Of a stretch of DNA of 64,000 nt, positions 13,707-19,910 are shown piece by piece. The position numbers and the translations under genes were made by a program. The DNA is taken from the NCBI GenBank assembly GCA_001920415.1, contig MNJR01000059.1:19042-83041 (forward strand), given 5' to 3'. A model generated the notes under the pieces. That model did no database searches and was not told where the DNA came from. It worked only from the letters and a program-made list of their open reading frames with translations. Each line of letters opens with the position of its first letter. The stretch's first letter is position 1. This DNA is from Acidobacteria bacterium 13_1_20CM_3_53_8. GTDB lineage: Bacteria; Acidobacteriota; Blastocatellia; Pyrinomonadales; Pyrinomonadaceae.

Positions 13707-16700
13707 ATGTCCATACGCAAATTCTCCTTGGCATGGAGTGTCGCACTCCTCGTAGCATTGGTCTGTGGTTCGCACCGCGTTGCATTCGGTCAGGAACCGC
13801 AGGCAAGCCCAAGTCCGACCAACACACCGGAAGCGTCCGACGTGGGGATGAAGACCTTTGACCGTCTGGAATGGCGCAACATAGGCCCGGCTTACATGAG
13901 CGGTCGCGTCTCGGACGTAGAGGGTGTGCCCGGCAACCCAGATATTGTTTACGTCGCGTCCGCATCAGGCGGGCTATGGAAGACTACGAACGGCGGCATA
14001 ACGTGGCAGCCTATATTCGAGCGTCAGGGAACTATCTCGATTGGCGACGTGGCGCTGGAACCCGGCAACCCGGATGTCGTCTGGGTGGGCACGGGCGAGT
14101 CGAACGTGCGCAACTCCATCTCATTCGGCGATGGCGTTTACAAATCAACGGACGGCGGGCATACGTGGGCTAACATGGGTTTGCGCGACACGCGCTGCAT
14201 CTCGAAGATAGTCGTCAACCCGCGCAACCCTGACATCGTTTACGTAGGGGCGCTCGGCCACGTGTTTGGGCCAAACGAAGAGCGCGGCGTTTTTATGACT
14301 ACGGACGGTGGACGCACCTGGACGAAGACGCTCTACATTGATCAGAATCACGGCGTAGCAGACCTGACTATTGACCCCTCTAATCCAAACATAGTCTACG
14401 CGGCGATGTGGGCATTCAGACGAACGCCCTGGACGCATACGAGCGGGAGCGAGCGTGGCGGAATCTTCAAGTCAACGGATGGTGGGAGAACTTGGAAGAA
14501 GTTGACGGAAGGCTTGCCAAAGCTGATTGGTCGAATCGGCATCGCAGTTGCGCCGTCGAACTCGAACGTTGTTTACGCCATCATGGAGGCGAAAGAGGGA
14601 ACGCTCTATCGCTCGGATGATAGAGGCGAGACCTGGCGCAACGTATCGAAACAGACTTCAATCGTCTCGCGCGGCTTCTACTATACGCGCGTACGCGTTG
14701 ACCCCATTAATGAGAATCGCGTTTACGCCGTCGCCTCTACACTTTTTGTTTCGATTGACGGCGGGCGCTCCTTTCGTCCCATCAGCGGCAACACGCACGT
14801 TGATTTTCATGCGCTGTGGATTGACCCGCTAGACCCGAAGAGAATCTGGCAGGGACAGGATGGCGGCGCGGCCTTTTCAAACGATCAAGGACAGACGTGG
14901 CAGGTCGTACACAACTTGCCCGTAGGTCAGTTCTACCAGATTCACGTTGATAACCGTCAGCCATTCTATTACGTGATGGGCGGCCTTCAGGATAACGGCA
15001 CGTGGGCTGGCCCAAGCCGCACGCGTGAACCTGCGGGGATTCAGAACGATGACTGGCGAATGCTCAGTTTTGGCGACGGATTTTTCGTTACGAATTATGC
15101 GGACGACCCAGACATATATATCTCAGAATCGCAGGGCGGCGGCATCGTTCGCACGGACATGCGCAACCGTGAGCAGCAGTTGATAGCGCCGTATCTTGGA
15201 GACGACGAAGGCCCTGCTGTGGACGTGAAATACCGCTTCAACTGGAACTCGCCTATCATTCAATCGCCGCATGATAACAACACCATCTATCTGACGGGCA
15301 ACGTTGTCTTCAAATCAACTGACTTCGGCAGAACGTGGACTACGATCAGTCCAGACCTTACGAAGAGCATAAGAGAGAGGCTGCAATCCGCAGGCGGCCC
15401 CGTTGCGTTCGAGAATACGGGTGCGGAGTATTACGGCACGGTCATTAGCTTTGCGGAATCGCCGTTGCGCGCTGGCGTCTTGTGGGCGGGAACGGATGAC
15501 GGCCAGTTGCAACTGTCAACGGATGGCGGGAGCAACTGGACGAATTTGATAAAAAACGTGCCGGGACTCGGCCCCGATTCGCCCGTCTCGCACATAGAGC
15601 CTTCGCGCGTTGACGAGAATCTAGTTTACGCGGCTTTCGACCGTCACGCGCTTGATGACTTGAAGCCTTACGTTTACAAGTCAACTGACCAGGGGCGCTC
15701 GTGGCAGAACATTTCGGGCAATCTGCCCGCGAACGCTTACGTCTGGGCTTTGCGCGAAGACCCAAGAAATCCGCGACTGATTTACGCTGGGACTGAATCA
15801 GGGCTTTTCATCTCTTACACTGGCGGAGATTCGTGGCAGCGTCTTGAATTGAAGAACCTGCCGCACGTGGCCGTGCACGACATAATAATTCACCCGCAGC
15901 AGAACGATTTGATACTCGCCACACACGGGCGCGGAATATGGATTCTTGACGACGCAACGCCAATTCAACAGTTGACGCCAGAAGCGGCGCGCTCGAACGA
16001 TGCTCTCCTTTTCGACATGCGACCAGCGTTGCGATTCACCACGCGCTTTACTCGTTACGGCATAGGCAACGCCATGTTCACAGCGCCGAACCCGCCGTAC
16101 GGTGCGCTAATCAGCTACTACTTTAAGACGAAGCCAGCCGATAGCGTGAAGCCGAAGATTCAGATTCTGGACAGCAGCAACAAGGTGATTGCAGAGCTTG
16201 AGAACATTGCTCATGAGCAGGGCATCAATCGCGTCTCGTGGAATCTGCGCTACGGCGGGCCGCAGGTGCGCCGTCCGCCTACGGATGAAGAGGTTCAGTT
16301 CACAGGCGGGCCGCGCGGGCCACAGGTGCTGCCCGGCACATACACTGTGCGTCTAGTCATAGGCAGCAAGACCTATGAGAAGAAGATTGAAGTCAGACTC
16401 GACCCGACAGTTTCTGTACAGGCCGCAGACCTGCAAGCGCAGTTGGACATGTCGCTGAAGCTGCGCGATATGCAGTCAACAGTAAACACTGCGCTACGCA
16501 CCGTTGACAGCTTGAAATCTCAAGTTGATTTCGTTGAGAAGACTGTGAAGGAACGTTTGACGACAGTGCCCGCAGATTTGTCTCAGGGAATTGCAGATAT
16601 GAAGAAACAGGTCGAAGCTTTGCAGAACAGATTAGCGCAGCCCGAAGGTGGACTCGGTTTTTCTGGCCGCTCGCAGTTGGTTGATCGCATAGGCGGTCTC

Positions 16701-16904
16701 TTCTTCGCAATTGACGCGACGAACGCCGCGCCTACCGCCGCCATGCGCGAGCAGTACCAGAGGATTCAGACCGAGTACGACCAGCGTATGACGGAGGTCA
16801 ACAACTTCATGACCAAGACCGTGCCGCAGTTCAACGAACTGCTGCGCCGCTACGACGCGCCAACTCTTATGGTAGGTAAGCCGATTGAACCGCCTAGACA
16901 GTAA
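13707..16904 (+). CDS. Exported VPS10/BNR-repeat beta-propeller protein
   Basis: A 1065-residue protein with a signal peptide (1-29, ending VAFGQ). Residues about 50-760 form BNR/Asp-box blades of the sortilin/VPS10 type, with recurring STDGGRTW or TTDGGRTW turns and NPDIVYV-type strands, enough for one or two propellers. The C-terminal 300 residues hold a FlgD/Ig-like region (ALISYYFKTKP ... LPGTYTVRLVIGSKTYEKKIEV) and a helical tail. This architecture is common in secreted proteins of Acidobacteriota and Bacteroidota. It may bind or hydrolyse glycans, but no catalytic residues are identifiable. Repeats flank it on both sides. Confidence 0.85.
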   Translation: MSIRKFSLAWSVALLVALVCGSHRVAFGQEPQASPSPTNTPEASDVGMKTFDRLEWRNIGPAYMSGRVSDVEGVPGNPDIVYVASASGGLWKTTNGGITWQPIFERQGTISIGDVALEPGNPDVVWVGTGESNVRNSISFGDGVYKSTDGGHTWANMGLRDTRCISKIVVNPRNPDIVYVGALGHVFGPNEERGVFMTTDGGRTWTKTLYIDQNHGVADLTIDPSNPNIVYAAMWAFRRTPWTHTSGSERGGIFKSTDGGRTWKKLTEGLPKLIGRIGIAVAPSNSNVVYAIMEAKEGTLYRSDDRGETWRNVSKQTSIVSRGFYYTRVRVDPINENRVYAVASTLFVSIDGGRSFRPISGNTHVDFHALWIDPLDPKRIWQGQDGGAAFSNDQGQTWQVVHNLPVGQFYQIHVDNRQPFYYVMGGLQDNGTWAGPSRTREPAGIQNDDWRMLSFGDGFFVTNYADDPDIYISESQGGGIVRTDMRNREQQLIAPYLGDDEGPAVDVKYRFNWNSPIIQSPHDNNTIYLTGNVVFKSTDFGRTWTTISPDLTKSIRERLQSAGGPVAFENTGAEYYGTVISFAESPLRAGVLWAGTDDGQLQLSTDGGSNWTNLIKNVPGLGPDSPVSHIEPSRVDENLVYAAFDRHALDDLKPYVYKSTDQGRSWQNISGNLPANAYVWALREDPRNPRLIYAGTESGLFISYTGGDSWQRLELKNLPHVAVHDIIIHPQQNDLILATHGRGIWILDDATPIQQLTPEAARSNDALLFDMRPALRFTTRFTRYGIGNAMFTAPNPPYGALISYYFKTKPADSVKPKIQILDSSNKVIAELENIAHEQGINRVSWNLRYGGPQVRRPPTDEEVQFTGGPRGPQVLPGTYTVRLVIGSKTYEKKIEVRLDPTVSVQAADLQAQLDMSLKLRDMQSTVNTALRTVDSLKSQVDFVEKTVKERLTTVPADLSQGIADMKKQVEALQNRLAQPEGGLGFSGRSQLVDRIGGLFFAIDATNAAPTAAMREQYQRIQTEYDQRMTEVNNFMTKTVPQFNELLRRYDAPTLMVGKPIEPPRQ

Positions 16905-16920
16905 AGAGAGGAAAATAATA

Positions 16921-17010
16921 ATCCACGAAGTCACACGAAGAAACACGAAAGGAGGATATAAACCTTAACCTCGCTCTTTTCTTCGTGTCGTTTCGTGTGG
17001 CTTCGTGGAT
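16921..17010. repeat. CACGAAG-word palindromic hairpin
   Basis: ATCCACGAAGTCACACGAAG on the left arm is answered by CTTCGTGTCGTTTCGTGTGG and CTTCGTGGAT on the right. A relative with the same word is at 29418-29492. Confidence 0.9.
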
Positions 17011-17030
17011 AAATCTTCTTCCTTTAATTA

Positions 17031-17168
17031 TACCAAGTTGCAATAGAAAGAGAGGTCAGTACCGCCTGCGGTAGCGGGCGGGTAGTCATTGCATCCATCA
17101 CCCGCCCGCTACCGCAGGCGGTACTGACTGCGTGACTCTACGACCTCTTTTTCTATTGCAACTTGGTA
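17031..17168. repeat. Nested double palindrome
   Basis: Outer arms TACCAAGTTGCAATAGAAA (17031-17049) and its exact complement (17150-17168) enclose an inner 28-base inverted repeat (17056-17083 and 17100-17127) of the CCTGCGGTAGCGGGCGGG family. The inner unit also stands alone at 1-61, so it seems to have inserted into the outer one. It ends at the stop codon of the gene at 17169. Confidence 0.92.
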
Positions 17169-17774
17169 TTAGCTATTCGACTTGAGAATGTCCCATTGAA
17201 CATTCTCGTCTTCGTCCAGAGTTCCTACAAGAGTACAACGTAGCGGTGGCACTGCGCGCGGGCGTTGCTGGCGTGATAGTTGAGTAAAAAGGATCATGGG
17301 ATCGTAATTGAAATTGACAGTTTGCGACCGCGCCGCTTCTTCATGCTGGCATGGACGCTGAAGCTCTAGAGCAGCGCGTTCGTAAGAGACAATCTCATAC
17401 AAATATTTGACGCGCAGGCCAGACGCAAGGCGCTTTAGCAGATGGTCGCAGAAGTCTATTGCCTCTTGAAGAAAATAGTGGCTGACGGGTGGATTCACAG
17501 ACCAGAAGGCGCTCGCCTCTCTTATCATGCGCTTACGGCCCAAGAGAAAGCGCGTGAGCGGGAGCATTATGTAAAGCTTGCTCAAGCGAAAGTCTTTATG
17601 CACTAAGCGAGTAGCCTCCATGCCTCTGTCGGAAGCAACCTGAAGCAAGCGTTCCTGCTCAAGAGGCGTCAAATCATCTGCAAGCGACTGTAGACCATGC
17701 TCGCGTACGTGCGCGCGAAACTCCGTGTCAACGACCATTCGCGCGATTATTGTTTGAAAGCTGCGCTGGCTCAT
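17169..17774 (-). CDS. Partner protein of the DUF692 enzyme (candidate RiPP recognition/accessory protein)
   Basis: A 201-residue protein, start ATG overlapping the DUF692 stop as ATGA, so translation is coupled. The N-terminal 70 residues are helical (FQTIIARMVVDTEFRAHVRE, DDLTPLEQERLLQVASDRGME), followed by PLTRFLLGRKRM and a mid-region VSHYFLQEAIDFCDHLL. This gene position and size are those of the DUF2063/MbnC-like partners that present the peptide substrate to DUF692-family enzymes. I cannot confirm family membership from sequence alone. No signal peptide, so it is cytosolic. The stop codon abuts the nested palindrome. Confidence 0.65.
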   Translation of the reverse strand: MSQRSFQTIIARMVVDTEFRAHVREHGLQSLADDLTPLEQERLLQVASDRGMEATRLVHKDFRLSKLYIMLPLTRFLLGRKRMIREASAFWSVNPPVSHYFLQEAIDFCDHLLKRLASGLRVKYLYEIVSYERAALELQRPCQHEEAARSQTVNFNYDPMILFTQLSRQQRPRAVPPLRCTLVGTLDEDENVQWDILKSNS

Positions 17775-18688
17775 ACGGTCGCCTCAAAGGGTTGCGGCGC
17801 TGGCTGGTGGCGCATCCACATCTCTTTCATGCGCGCAAGCTGCGCGGTCAACCCGTCTTCGCCAACATCAACCAGCCAGGAGCCTATCATCTCAAACGTG
17901 ACGCCTCCCAGATTCGGAACTCGCGGCAACACCCAATCCAGAAGCTCCCAAACTTTCTGTGGACTCACGCCCGAATGCGCGTCGAAATAGAAACCTTGCG
18001 CCTCCATTCCTCCGGCGACGTGAATCTCCAGAACGTTTTCAAGGTTTAGCTTTTCAAGGAAGCGGTAAGGGTCGTCACGGTGGTTGCGACAGTTGGTGTA
18101 GAGATTATGAAGGTCTAGCAGAAGACGACAGCCGCTCTGTTCACATAATTGATTGAGAAAAGCGGCCTCATCGAAATCTTGTTGAGAATACTTGAAGAAG
18201 TAAACGTTGTTCTCAAGCAGAAAGGGAATAGGAACGCTGGAGCGCATTTCGCGCACGCGCGGCATCAAAAGGTCTAGAGACTCTTGATCGTATGGCAGCG
18301 GCATGGTCACGCCTACGTTCAACTCGGACGTGGCGTGTTCGGTGAACATGAAGGCCAGATGGTCGCTGTGCCAGGGGAACTTGAGCCATTCATACCAGCG
18401 AGCTATCTGCGCTATGTGTTCGCGGTCGAAGCGGTGTGCGCTGCCTATGGAGAAACCTATGCTGTGAAGAATGACAGGCATCTCCCTGTGCAGTTGTCGT
18501 AGCAGACTAATCCCTCGCCTGTTCTCAATGAAGCGCGGACTGCTGCCATAGCCCATGTCCGTCCACATGATGTCTGGGATTAGCTCAAGAAAATCGAAGT
18601 GCTGCTGTTCGCGCTCGATAAAGGGGCGCAATTGTTCTTGATAGAGCAGGCCTATGCCGAGTTTGGGAACTGACGATTGCTGGTGCAT
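17771..18688 (-). CDS. DUF692-family (MNIO) multinuclear iron-dependent oxidative enzyme
   Basis: A 305-residue TIM-barrel protein of the DUF692 family (MbnB, TglH relatives). Family features visible are the N-terminal LGIGLLYQEQLRPFI, FDFLELIPDIMW, HSIGFSIGSAHRFD (H75), PWHSDHLAF (H107, D109, H110), LLENNVYFF, LLLDLHNLYTN, EIHVAGG and the late VTFEMIGSW. The His/Asp/Glu residues are those expected to hold two or three iron ions. Known members oxidatively modify cysteines or nearby residues of ribosomal peptides. Its gene lies between a Cys-x-x-Cys peptide gene and the partner protein, on one strand, which fits a RiPP pathway. The start ATG at 18688 directly begins the homology. Confidence 0.88.
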   Translation of the reverse strand: MHQQSSVPKLGIGLLYQEQLRPFIEREQQHFDFLELIPDIMWTDMGYGSSPRFIENRRGISLLRQLHREMPVILHSIGFSIGSAHRFDREHIAQIARWYEWLKFPWHSDHLAFMFTEHATSELNVGVTMPLPYDQESLDLLMPRVREMRSSVPIPFLLENNVYFFKYSQQDFDEAAFLNQLCEQSGCRLLLDLHNLYTNCRNHRDDPYRFLEKLNLENVLEIHVAGGMEAQGFYFDAHSGVSPQKVWELLDWVLPRVPNLGGVTFEMIGSWLVDVGEDGLTAQLARMKEMWMRHQPAPQPFEATV

Positions 18689-18727
18689 TGCCGAATATTC
18701 TGTCGGGAACGTGAGCGACGCTTATGA

Positions 18728-18769
18728 CTCACAAGGAACGAGCAGATCGAACGGCTCGTTCCTTGTGAG
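18728..18769 (-). promoter_or_regulatory. Strong hairpin between precursor and enzyme genes
   Basis: CTCACAAGGAACGAGC (18728-18743) and GCTCGTTCCTTGTGAG (18754-18769) form a perfect 16-base-pair stem with a ten-base loop in the 155-base gap between peptide and DUF692 genes. No T-run follows on the minus strand. It may be a partial terminator or an RNA-stability element giving more precursor than enzyme, as is frequent in RiPP operons. Confidence 0.7.
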
Positions 18770-18843
18770 AAACCAGAGAGCATCAGAGTTAAATTGATGC
18801 GCGAGGGCAGCCCCTGTGCTTATAGCGCAAGGCGTGGCCTCAG

Positions 18844-19182
18844 TTATCCGCCGCCTCCTGCGGATATATCCTGAAGGGTGATCTTTTCAAAGCCGGATTT
18901 GCAACCGGGGCATCCCGCATTTCTGAATGCCAGCTTCGTCGCAGCGACGATGTCGTTGATACCGGCATTACGAGGCACAGCTACTCTTAGCTCTTTTCTT
19001 GATCCTGCGATAGCTCCCACAGAACCCGCGATTCCGCCCACAGTGCTGGCAATCGAGCCTAGGTCACTGAGGAATCCGCGCGTCTGCCCGCCTTTTTTGG
19101 CCGCGCCCTTTTTGGCTCCGCCCTTTTTAGACGCCCCTTTTTTAGCTGCGCCCTTTTTGCTTCCTCTCTTAGTTGCTGCCAT
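18844..19182 (-). CDS. Lys-rich peptide with C-terminal CPGC motif, candidate RiPP precursor
   Basis: A 112-residue peptide. The start at 19182 has AAAGGAGAAC eight bases upstream and beats the in-frame upstream ATG at 19248. Residues 5-36 are repeats of KKGA/KKGG, strongly basic. Residues 38-62 are Gly/Ala/Ser-rich (SIASTVGGIAGSVGAIAGS). Residues 64-86 are a more ordinary, helical stretch. The end is AGCPGCKSGF (C91, C94), then ITLQDISAGGGG. The gene is first in a three-gene run with a DUF692 enzyme, which in known systems acts on cysteines, so C91/C94 are the likely targets. It matches no precursor class I recognise. It could instead be a small DNA- or polyphosphate-binding protein. Confidence 0.7.
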   Translation of the reverse strand: MAATKRGSKKGAAKKGASKKGGAKKGAAKKGGQTRGFLSDLGSIASTVGGIAGSVGAIAGSRKELRVAVPRNAGINDIVAATKLAFRNAGCPGCKSGFEKITLQDISAGGGG

Positions 19183-19346
19183 AAAATGTTCTCCTTTTCT
19201 GTAGTTGGCATGTTTGGTTGTTGCGCAAGGTTTACGAGTCATCTTCACAAGCAGATTAGCCGGGGCTTCTCAGAGCGGTTCAGGAAAAGCGAGCATGAGT
19301 GAAGCCTCGATTAACTAGAAGCATGAGGTACAGATAGAACGAGAGC

Positions 19347-19375
19347 AACTTATTCCTGTCTTAACAAAATGTCAA
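19347..19375 (-). promoter_or_regulatory. Candidate sigma-70 promoter for the peptide/DUF692 cluster
   Basis: On the minus strand TTGACA (19370-19375) is followed after exactly 17 bases by TAAGTT (19347-19352). It is about 165 bases upstream of the peptide start, implying a long leader. The -35 is consensus, the -10 is weak (three of six). Confidence 0.45.
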
Positions 19376-19507: not shown

Positions 19508-19560
19508 TATTGATTTAATTGATGGGCCGTGCAAGACTCGAACTTGCGACCCGCTGATTA

Positions 19561-19865
19561 CTTACCACCTCGACTTTCGCCGCCCCAAATAAGTCAAAAG
19601 GTAAAAAGGTAAAAGGCAAAAGAAAAACTGCTTGATATTCATCCTTTTTGCCTTTTTACTTCTACCTTTTGCCTTCCTTTTGGGTTCGTGGTCTGGACTA
19701 TCCCTTCACCATATCTCTCACGAGATTTAGGTGGGCATCGTCTAGTCTCTACACCTTCCCTGTTATCGCAGGGCTTGGCTCGGGATCGCCATCGCACGCA
19801 GGCGGAAGGGTTCCCCGACTTTGACGCCTTTTCGCTCACCCGTTTCCAGGCAAGGCTCCCATTTG
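19561..19865 (-). ncRNA. Group I (IC3-like) self-splicing intron in tRNA-Lys
   Basis: A 305-nt intron. The 5' exon ends in U and the intron ends in G, as required. The guide GGAG a few bases inside the intron pairs with exon CUCU, with the conserved G-U at the splice site (P1). Core elements typical of bacterial tRNA introns are present: GAGCCAAGCC (Q/P region), GGUGUAGAGACUAGACG (R, 19739-19755) and GGGAUAGUCC (S, 19695-19704), whose GACUA/UAGUC blocks form P7. No homing endonuclease is encoded. Removing an inserted repeat (19587-19682) leaves about 210 nt, close to the small tRNA introns of Azoarcus and cyanobacteria. Confidence 0.9.
19587..19682. repeat. GGCAAAAGGTAAAAG palindrome inserted in the tRNA intron
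   Basis: The same purine-word palindrome found in intergenic gaps elsewhere lies near the 3' end of the group I intron, beyond P7, where it would simply extend a peripheral (P9-type) stem. Left arm 19592-19622, right arm 19643-19678. Confidence 0.88.
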
Positions 19866-19910
19866 AGAGTCAGCTGCTCTACCAACTGAGCTAACGGCCC
19901 GTGATTAGAA

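Follow-up and report, generated by a model that had tools for sequence, protein, structure and literature searches.

A three-gene MNIO operon with a CxxC precursor in an acidobacterial genome, very probably of the adjamnio-7 kind

Several unusual reactions are known for MNIO enzymes, a family whose members are for the most part uncharacterised. TglH acts on a C-terminal Cys; in its substrate TglA, the modified residue is a Cys added at the C-terminus, and other tgl enzymes are needed. In bufferins and captophorins (BufABC, HvfABC, FonABC), an MNIO and its partner modify Cys-containing precursors that carry Sec signal peptides and Cys motifs of the DUF2282 or EGKCG kind; Cys is converted to 5-thiooxazole, copper is bound, and the partners are of PME-type 1 (DUF2063). 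Thiooxazole formation is the chemistry described for BufB (PMC12452194, PMC12668002). The survey of Antoine et al. (2025, PMC12452194) also named the adjamnio-7 type, i.e., signal-less CxxC precursors beside MNIO enzymes of SSN cluster 7, the chemistry of which is not established. The named example comes from Novilysobacter spongiicola of the Lysobacteraceae (WP_078758616) (PMC12452194). In our literature search, MNIO and CxxC were found together only in this survey, and no report was found in which the product of such a trio was characterised or its chemistry established.

The locus studied here lies in the window, by which we mean the whole stretch of 64,000 nucleotides that was analysed. 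The preliminary description had proposed three genes on the minus strand, coding for a 112-aa CPGC peptide, a DUF692/MNIO enzyme and a coupled partner, and ORF calling confirmed them. The genes are consecutive, in the order precursor, MNIO, partner. The features of the operon are as follows:

19182..18844, minus strand: precursor gene, 112 aa (ORF call, homologue alignment)
19076..19170, minus strand: Lys/Gly/Ala-rich front of the precursor, tandem repeat with five overlapping copies at 15-nt spacing (repeat search)
18889..18915, minus strand: conserved core motif GCPGCKSGF, residues 90–98, presumed modification site (alignment, motif enrichment)
18728..18769, minus strand: perfect 16-bp hairpin in the gap between the precursor and MNIO genes, candidate attenuator or processing site (RNA fold)
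18688..17771, minus strand: MNIO (DUF692, MbnB_TglH_ChrH family) oxidase gene, 305 aa (PF05114 match)
17774..17169, minus strand: partner protein gene, 201 aa (predicted structure, Foldseek)

The start of the partner gene overlaps the MNIO stop by 4 nt (ATGA), and AAAAGGAG stands immediately before the ATG of the precursor. The promoter that had been proposed for the operon proved weak: a perfect TTGACA is present at 19375–19370 without a good -10 element, and a promoter scan detected none at 19375; chance alone would give 2.0 matches in the region, and the single one obtained lies far upstream. The intergenic hairpin folds with a z-score of -4.67 and occurs once in the host genome, which ruled it out as a dispersed repeat. 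In the nearest relatives, the gap between the precursor and MNIO genes is only 0–45 nt, in contrast to the hairpin-bearing gap here. It is plausible that the hairpin, a candidate only, acts as an attenuator or processing site leaving the precursor in excess.

The flanks of the operon contain several further elements. Directly 3' of the partner gene, a palindromic MITE/REP-like element is located at 17028–17171; the host genome contains some 40 copies of its core, one of them nearly full-length at 97%. A second inverted repeat at 16914–17017, 81% complementary (CCACGAAG...CACGAA), separates the operon from a convergent large gene (13707–16904). On the other side, the operon is adjoined by a tRNA-Lys(CTT) gene on the minus strand (19523–19900). 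A group I intron of about 305 nt splits its anticodon loop; the Rfam Intron_gpI model scores this intron at 45.3 bits, slightly short of the 50-bit cut-off. The joined exons were identified by ARAGORN as tRNA-Lys(ctt); the unjoined gene was missed by the standard ARAGORN and Rfam scans.

The enzyme matched Pfam PF05114 with 190.9 bits (cut-off 25), and the putative metal ligands H75, H110, E159, D192, H223, D236, H238, and E266 were identical in all 59 aligned MNIOs. This agrees with the earlier reading of a DUF692/MNIO enzyme that retains its ligands, most of which also occur in TglH according to the profile alignment (matches to TglH 8hci and to 3bww). The invariance of C187, L190, L191, D192, L193, and N195 in the MNIO set was partly forced by the search pattern; thus, D192 is the ligand with the weakest evidence. 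Among the NCBIfam equivalog models, BufB scored best (155 bits, cut-off 310), followed by HvfB (128.2, cut-off 360), ApyH (116.7, cut-off 400), and ChrH (67.7, cut-off 600). No cut-off of a characterised equivalog was reached among the aminopyruvatide, chryseobasin, oxazolin, and bufferin models, and the MbnB model was absent from the NCBIfam matches of the enzyme. Since the score is far below the BufB cut-off, a bufferin product is not necessarily made.

The partner from the window had no Pfam or NCBIfam match above cut-off, including no Pfam match to DUF2063; some of its homologues weakly match DUF2063, HvfC, and ApyI. A sequence search of the PDB with the partner profile gave no match, and structure comparison was used instead. 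The AlphaFold2 model, built with 41 sequences (pLDDT 92.9), predicts an all-helical domain and, after it, a short RRE-like alpha/beta domain. Significant Foldseek matches in the PDB were limited to TglI in the TglHI complex (8hi7, E 1.2e-4, TM 0.70; 8hci), followed by NGO1945 (3dee, E 0.019). Judged from this model, the partner fits PME-type 2 as defined in PMC12452194, i.e., an NGO1945/TglI-like predicted structure without the DUF2063 Pfam signature.

Residues 89–98 of the precursor read AGCPGCKSGF, with Cys at positions 91 and 94, and the core has the sequence ...ELRVAVPRNAGINDIVAATKLAFRNAGCPGCKSGFEKITLQD... The protein has no Pfam or NCBIfam family above cut-off; therefore, such genes are likely missed or left unnamed in annotation. 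Cys residues that vary among homologues, which the preliminary description had listed as evidence against its reading, were not seen: C91 and C94 were invariant in the 39 homologous precursors aligned. The Gly of CxxCxSG (G97) was conserved in at least 90% of them, and the SG[LFI][DE] stretch was also largely conserved, with differences among relatives in the residues after SG. In two members (L138, L141), the Cys residues are spaced as C-x-C, a difference that the alignment accommodates with a gap.

The homologues share the core and mostly comprise only 65–90 residues, so that the extra length of the window's precursor consists of the Lys/Gly/Ala-rich front and a Gly/Ala-rich stretch (SIASTVGGIAGSVGAIAGS). 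The KKGA-repeat front reported earlier does exist and derives from a 15-nt tandem repeat; however, it is absent from the homologues and thus stands outside the family signature. As the fronts of the nearest relatives (e.g., L084, L083, L089) are short and mildly basic, the window's front looks like an exaggerated basic leader, probably a lineage-specific extension that arose by repeat slippage. None of the other homologues seen carries such a long Lys-rich/Gly-rich front. By inspection, the N-terminus is hydrophilic and Lys-rich and contains no signal peptide. The AlphaFold model of the precursor was poor overall (pLDDT 58.6) and better for residues 61–90; it places a strand at 64–67 and a helix at 75–87 ahead of the CxxC motif, and a strand at 100–103 after it.

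A search of the order, class, and phylum of the genome detected the trio at six further loci (L003, L062, L063, L036, L004, L005), and the same trio in the same gene order was found in distant genomes. The single-protein query against GTDB representative contigs gave no match; the alignment query succeeded, and the profile scan of these contigs yielded 80 named loci. The alignment query had no match in viral contigs, and the core query found nothing meaningful in plasmids. Upstream of most of the 80 loci lies a small ORF with the core [GA]C-x-x-C-x-SG-[LFI]-D, in Lysobacter, Luteimonas, Hydrogenophaga, Archangium, Nitrospira, Reyranella, Dyella, Nostoc, and Taibaiella, as well as in Acidobacteriota and Planctomycetota MAGs.

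On the MNIO tree, a clade of 65 members from at least eight phyla (SH-aLRT 88) had a CxxC precursor upstream in 64 cases, and in the window's subclade (49 rows, SH-aLRT 95) the CxxC-type precursor was present in all 49. In the remaining clade member (L143), an ABC-transporter-ATPase-like gene occupies the slot directly upstream. Along the 138-row tree, the precursor-type label changed 3 times versus 46 times with shuffled labels, which is clustering rather than independent discovery, because the “CxxC” label was assigned after inspection of the upstream ORFs. The phylum's bufferin-like and TIGR04222-like MNIOs fall elsewhere in the tree. For the strict motif, the slot was defined as an ORF within 700 nt upstream of the MNIO gene: the motif occurred there on the coding strand at 56 of 65 loci, on the opposite strand at 1 of 65, and in 2 of 962 other 720-nt stretches from the same loci. 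None of 14 Myxococcaceae MNIO loci from another clade contained it.

The linkage to MNIO was confirmed from the precursor side too. The precursor profile was run on 396 Acidobacteriota, 16 distant-relative, and 149 Lysobacteraceae genomes (about 560) and gave matches in 4, 12, and 8 genomes, respectively, one per genome. All the matches in Acidobacteriota and distant relatives were, by coordinates, known MNIO-linked copies; of those in Lysobacteraceae, four were already known and four were new. Three of the new precursors (E 5e-7 to 1.4e-4) adjoin an MNIO gene (tblastn E about 1e-47). The fourth match (G661, E 8.5e-4), inside a 666-aa frame with no MNIO nearby, was rejected as an orphan precursor and looks like chance. 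Homologues widely present without a DUF692 neighbour, the other finding previously held to count against the proposal, were likewise not encountered, as these genomes contained no convincing orphan precursor. Thus, with the invariant Cys residues and the MNIO linkage, the sequence data support the earlier reading of an MNIO-type RiPP or modified-protein cluster with a partner.

In an all-against-all comparison of the flanks, the genes shared besides the partner were mostly confined to one genus, and no dedicated exporter, tailoring enzyme, or protease was found family-wide. One group of shared genes covered seven loci over several genera and may represent a grouping of common genes.

The core was also observed on other fronts. 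By eye, it follows double-glycine-type leaders in Cyanobacteriota and Bacteroidota, including Nostoc and Taibaiella (L094–L096, L112; L105, L114, L115, L133), and twin-arginine-like fronts in Cellvibrio, Hahella, and Myxococcus (L113, L119, L122, L125). As the leader types vary between branches, the destination appears to differ while the core is kept. Some Bacteroidota precursors contain two CxxCRSG motifs or are encoded by tandem genes. In an Anaerolineae MAG (L142), the CPECCSG core lies in the N-terminal part of a 175-aa protein, and the neighbouring MNIO frame is exceptionally long (499 aa). In addition, a second MNIO of the host genome (L002, contig C95) is bufferin-like and has no CxxC precursor upstream. 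At ten loci of the same family (L006, L009, L012, L014, L015, L017, L019, L022, L026, L028), other MNIOs are preceded, by eye, by TIGR04222-like proteins with very Cys/Gly/Ser-rich tails.

The reading that we prefer is that the MNIO and its partner modify the CxxC motif of the precursor, with a probability of about 0.78, and the Cys pair is in all likelihood the target. The three genes would form a minimal operon modifying one small protein. By analogy with MbnBC and HvfBC (PMC13419390) and FonBC (PMC12668002), the most likely mechanism would be partner binding followed by thiolate oxidation at a diiron centre. The partner would bind the precursor, probably via the beta-strand ELRVAV just ahead of the core, and present the C-terminal CPGCKSGF to the MNIO. 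A substrate Cys thiolate would then bind the ferric site of the mixed-valent diiron centre, and C91 and/or C94 would be oxidised with O2 by the MNIO–partner complex. The likeliest single product may be a Cys-derived 5-thiooxazole-type heterocycle, a compact soft-metal (copper) ligand. The thiooxazole assignment is tentative, its one advantage being that BufB is the closest subfamily described; a role in copper binding is somewhat more doubtful. The modified protein would probably remain in the cytoplasm, which is the simplest reading because no signal peptide, protease, or exporter is common to the family.

A different Cys reaction on CxxCxSG, about as likely as the 5-thiooxazole, has a serious chance that falls a little short of even. 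It would yield a non-copper product, either by a ChrH-like cross-link or macrocycle (Cys–Cys or with the backbone) or by TglH-like excision of a Cys carbon. The enzyme's place outside every NCBIfam equivalog and the TglI-nearest fold of the partner are consistent with such a reaction, and a joint product is suggested by the almost constant distance between the two Cys and the nearly invariant Gly after them. However, BufB ranks first in NCBIfam and ChrH well below it (155 versus 67.7 bits), the Cys pair in the window is internal, unlike the TglH target, and the C-x-C spacing in two members argues against a rigid cross-link. A broader proposal, according to which the CxxCxSG proteins constitute a widespread MNIO substrate class in their own right, with a distinct non-thiooxazole chemistry on a small folded intracellular domain, and the Lys-rich version from the window is a modified nucleic-acid- or membrane-associated metalloprotein, is speculative and rather unlikely. 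It is less probable still that the MNIO acts on a residue other than Cys close to the motif (Gly, or Asp/Glu after SG) and that the Cys residues only bind metal or form a disulfide: Asp, Asn, or Phe are targets of other MNIOs (PMC12452194), and the conservation of SG[LFI][DE] would fit, but the two Cys are the only invariant positions and the residues after SG vary among relatives. Finally, a histone-like, Lys-rich DNA-binding role for the 112-aa protein, with only accidental adjacency to the MNIO, is hardly credible, since the weak matches of its front to HC2/H1-like histones (E 0.015 to 0.03) are far under the cut-offs and confined to the low-complexity repeat, and the conserved part is the CxxC core, common to 38 MNIO-linked homologues without the repeat.

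From this one operon, the analysis arrives at a defined substrate family: a short alignable core with two invariant Cys, which lies upstream of a single MNIO clade spread over eight or more phyla, usually accompanied by a partner gene alone. The family offers a small testable set for new cysteine chemistry. Special to this operon are the K/G/A front on 15-nt tandem repeats, the glycine-rich centre, and the intergenic hairpin.

Comparison with the known systems demonstrated partial similarity to several of them. With TglH-TglI (3-thiaglutamate/pearlin), the operon shares the partner fold, for which TglI was the best match, and an MNIO whose profile aligns over nearly full length with shared ligands; however, no other tgl enzymes were seen at the window's locus. 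Like bufferins and captophorins, it combines an MNIO and a partner with a Cys-containing precursor, but it lacks a signal peptide (by inspection) and a PME-type 1 partner, its MNIO reaches half the BufB cut-off, and in the tree this enzyme is separated from the bufferin-like MNIOs found in the same phylum. The Adjamnio-2 (Hahella) type (PMC12452194) may be represented in the sister group by Hahella sp. HN01 (L119), with a GCPTCGLVGLD core upstream of the MNIO; it differs in longer precursors, a twin-arginine-like front, and CG-x-x-G replacing CxSG, as seen in HN01 rather than in the KA22 reference.

The adjamnio-7 type (PMC12452194) fits on every feature checked, so the earlier statement that the peptide matches no known class is not supported. 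A CxxC motif, the lack of a signal peptide, and a small precursor gene adjoining the MNIO gene are common to both, and Lysobacteraceae (L083, L085, L088, L089, L091) rank with the closest relatives of the MNIO from the window. The operon thus very probably belongs to the adjamnio-7 kind, an assignment based on the published description and, indirectly, on the Lysobacteraceae members of the same clade, rather than on the WP_078758616 sequence. The difference is the Lys/Gly-rich extension of the window's precursor, which the homologues lack. Of the proposed undescribed system, the unreported chemistry stands, whereas the type itself had very probably been named already in the 2025 survey (PMC12452194). 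Thus, the system is real and uncharacterised, it is of a kind that bioinformatics had already brought to light, and its front is unusual.
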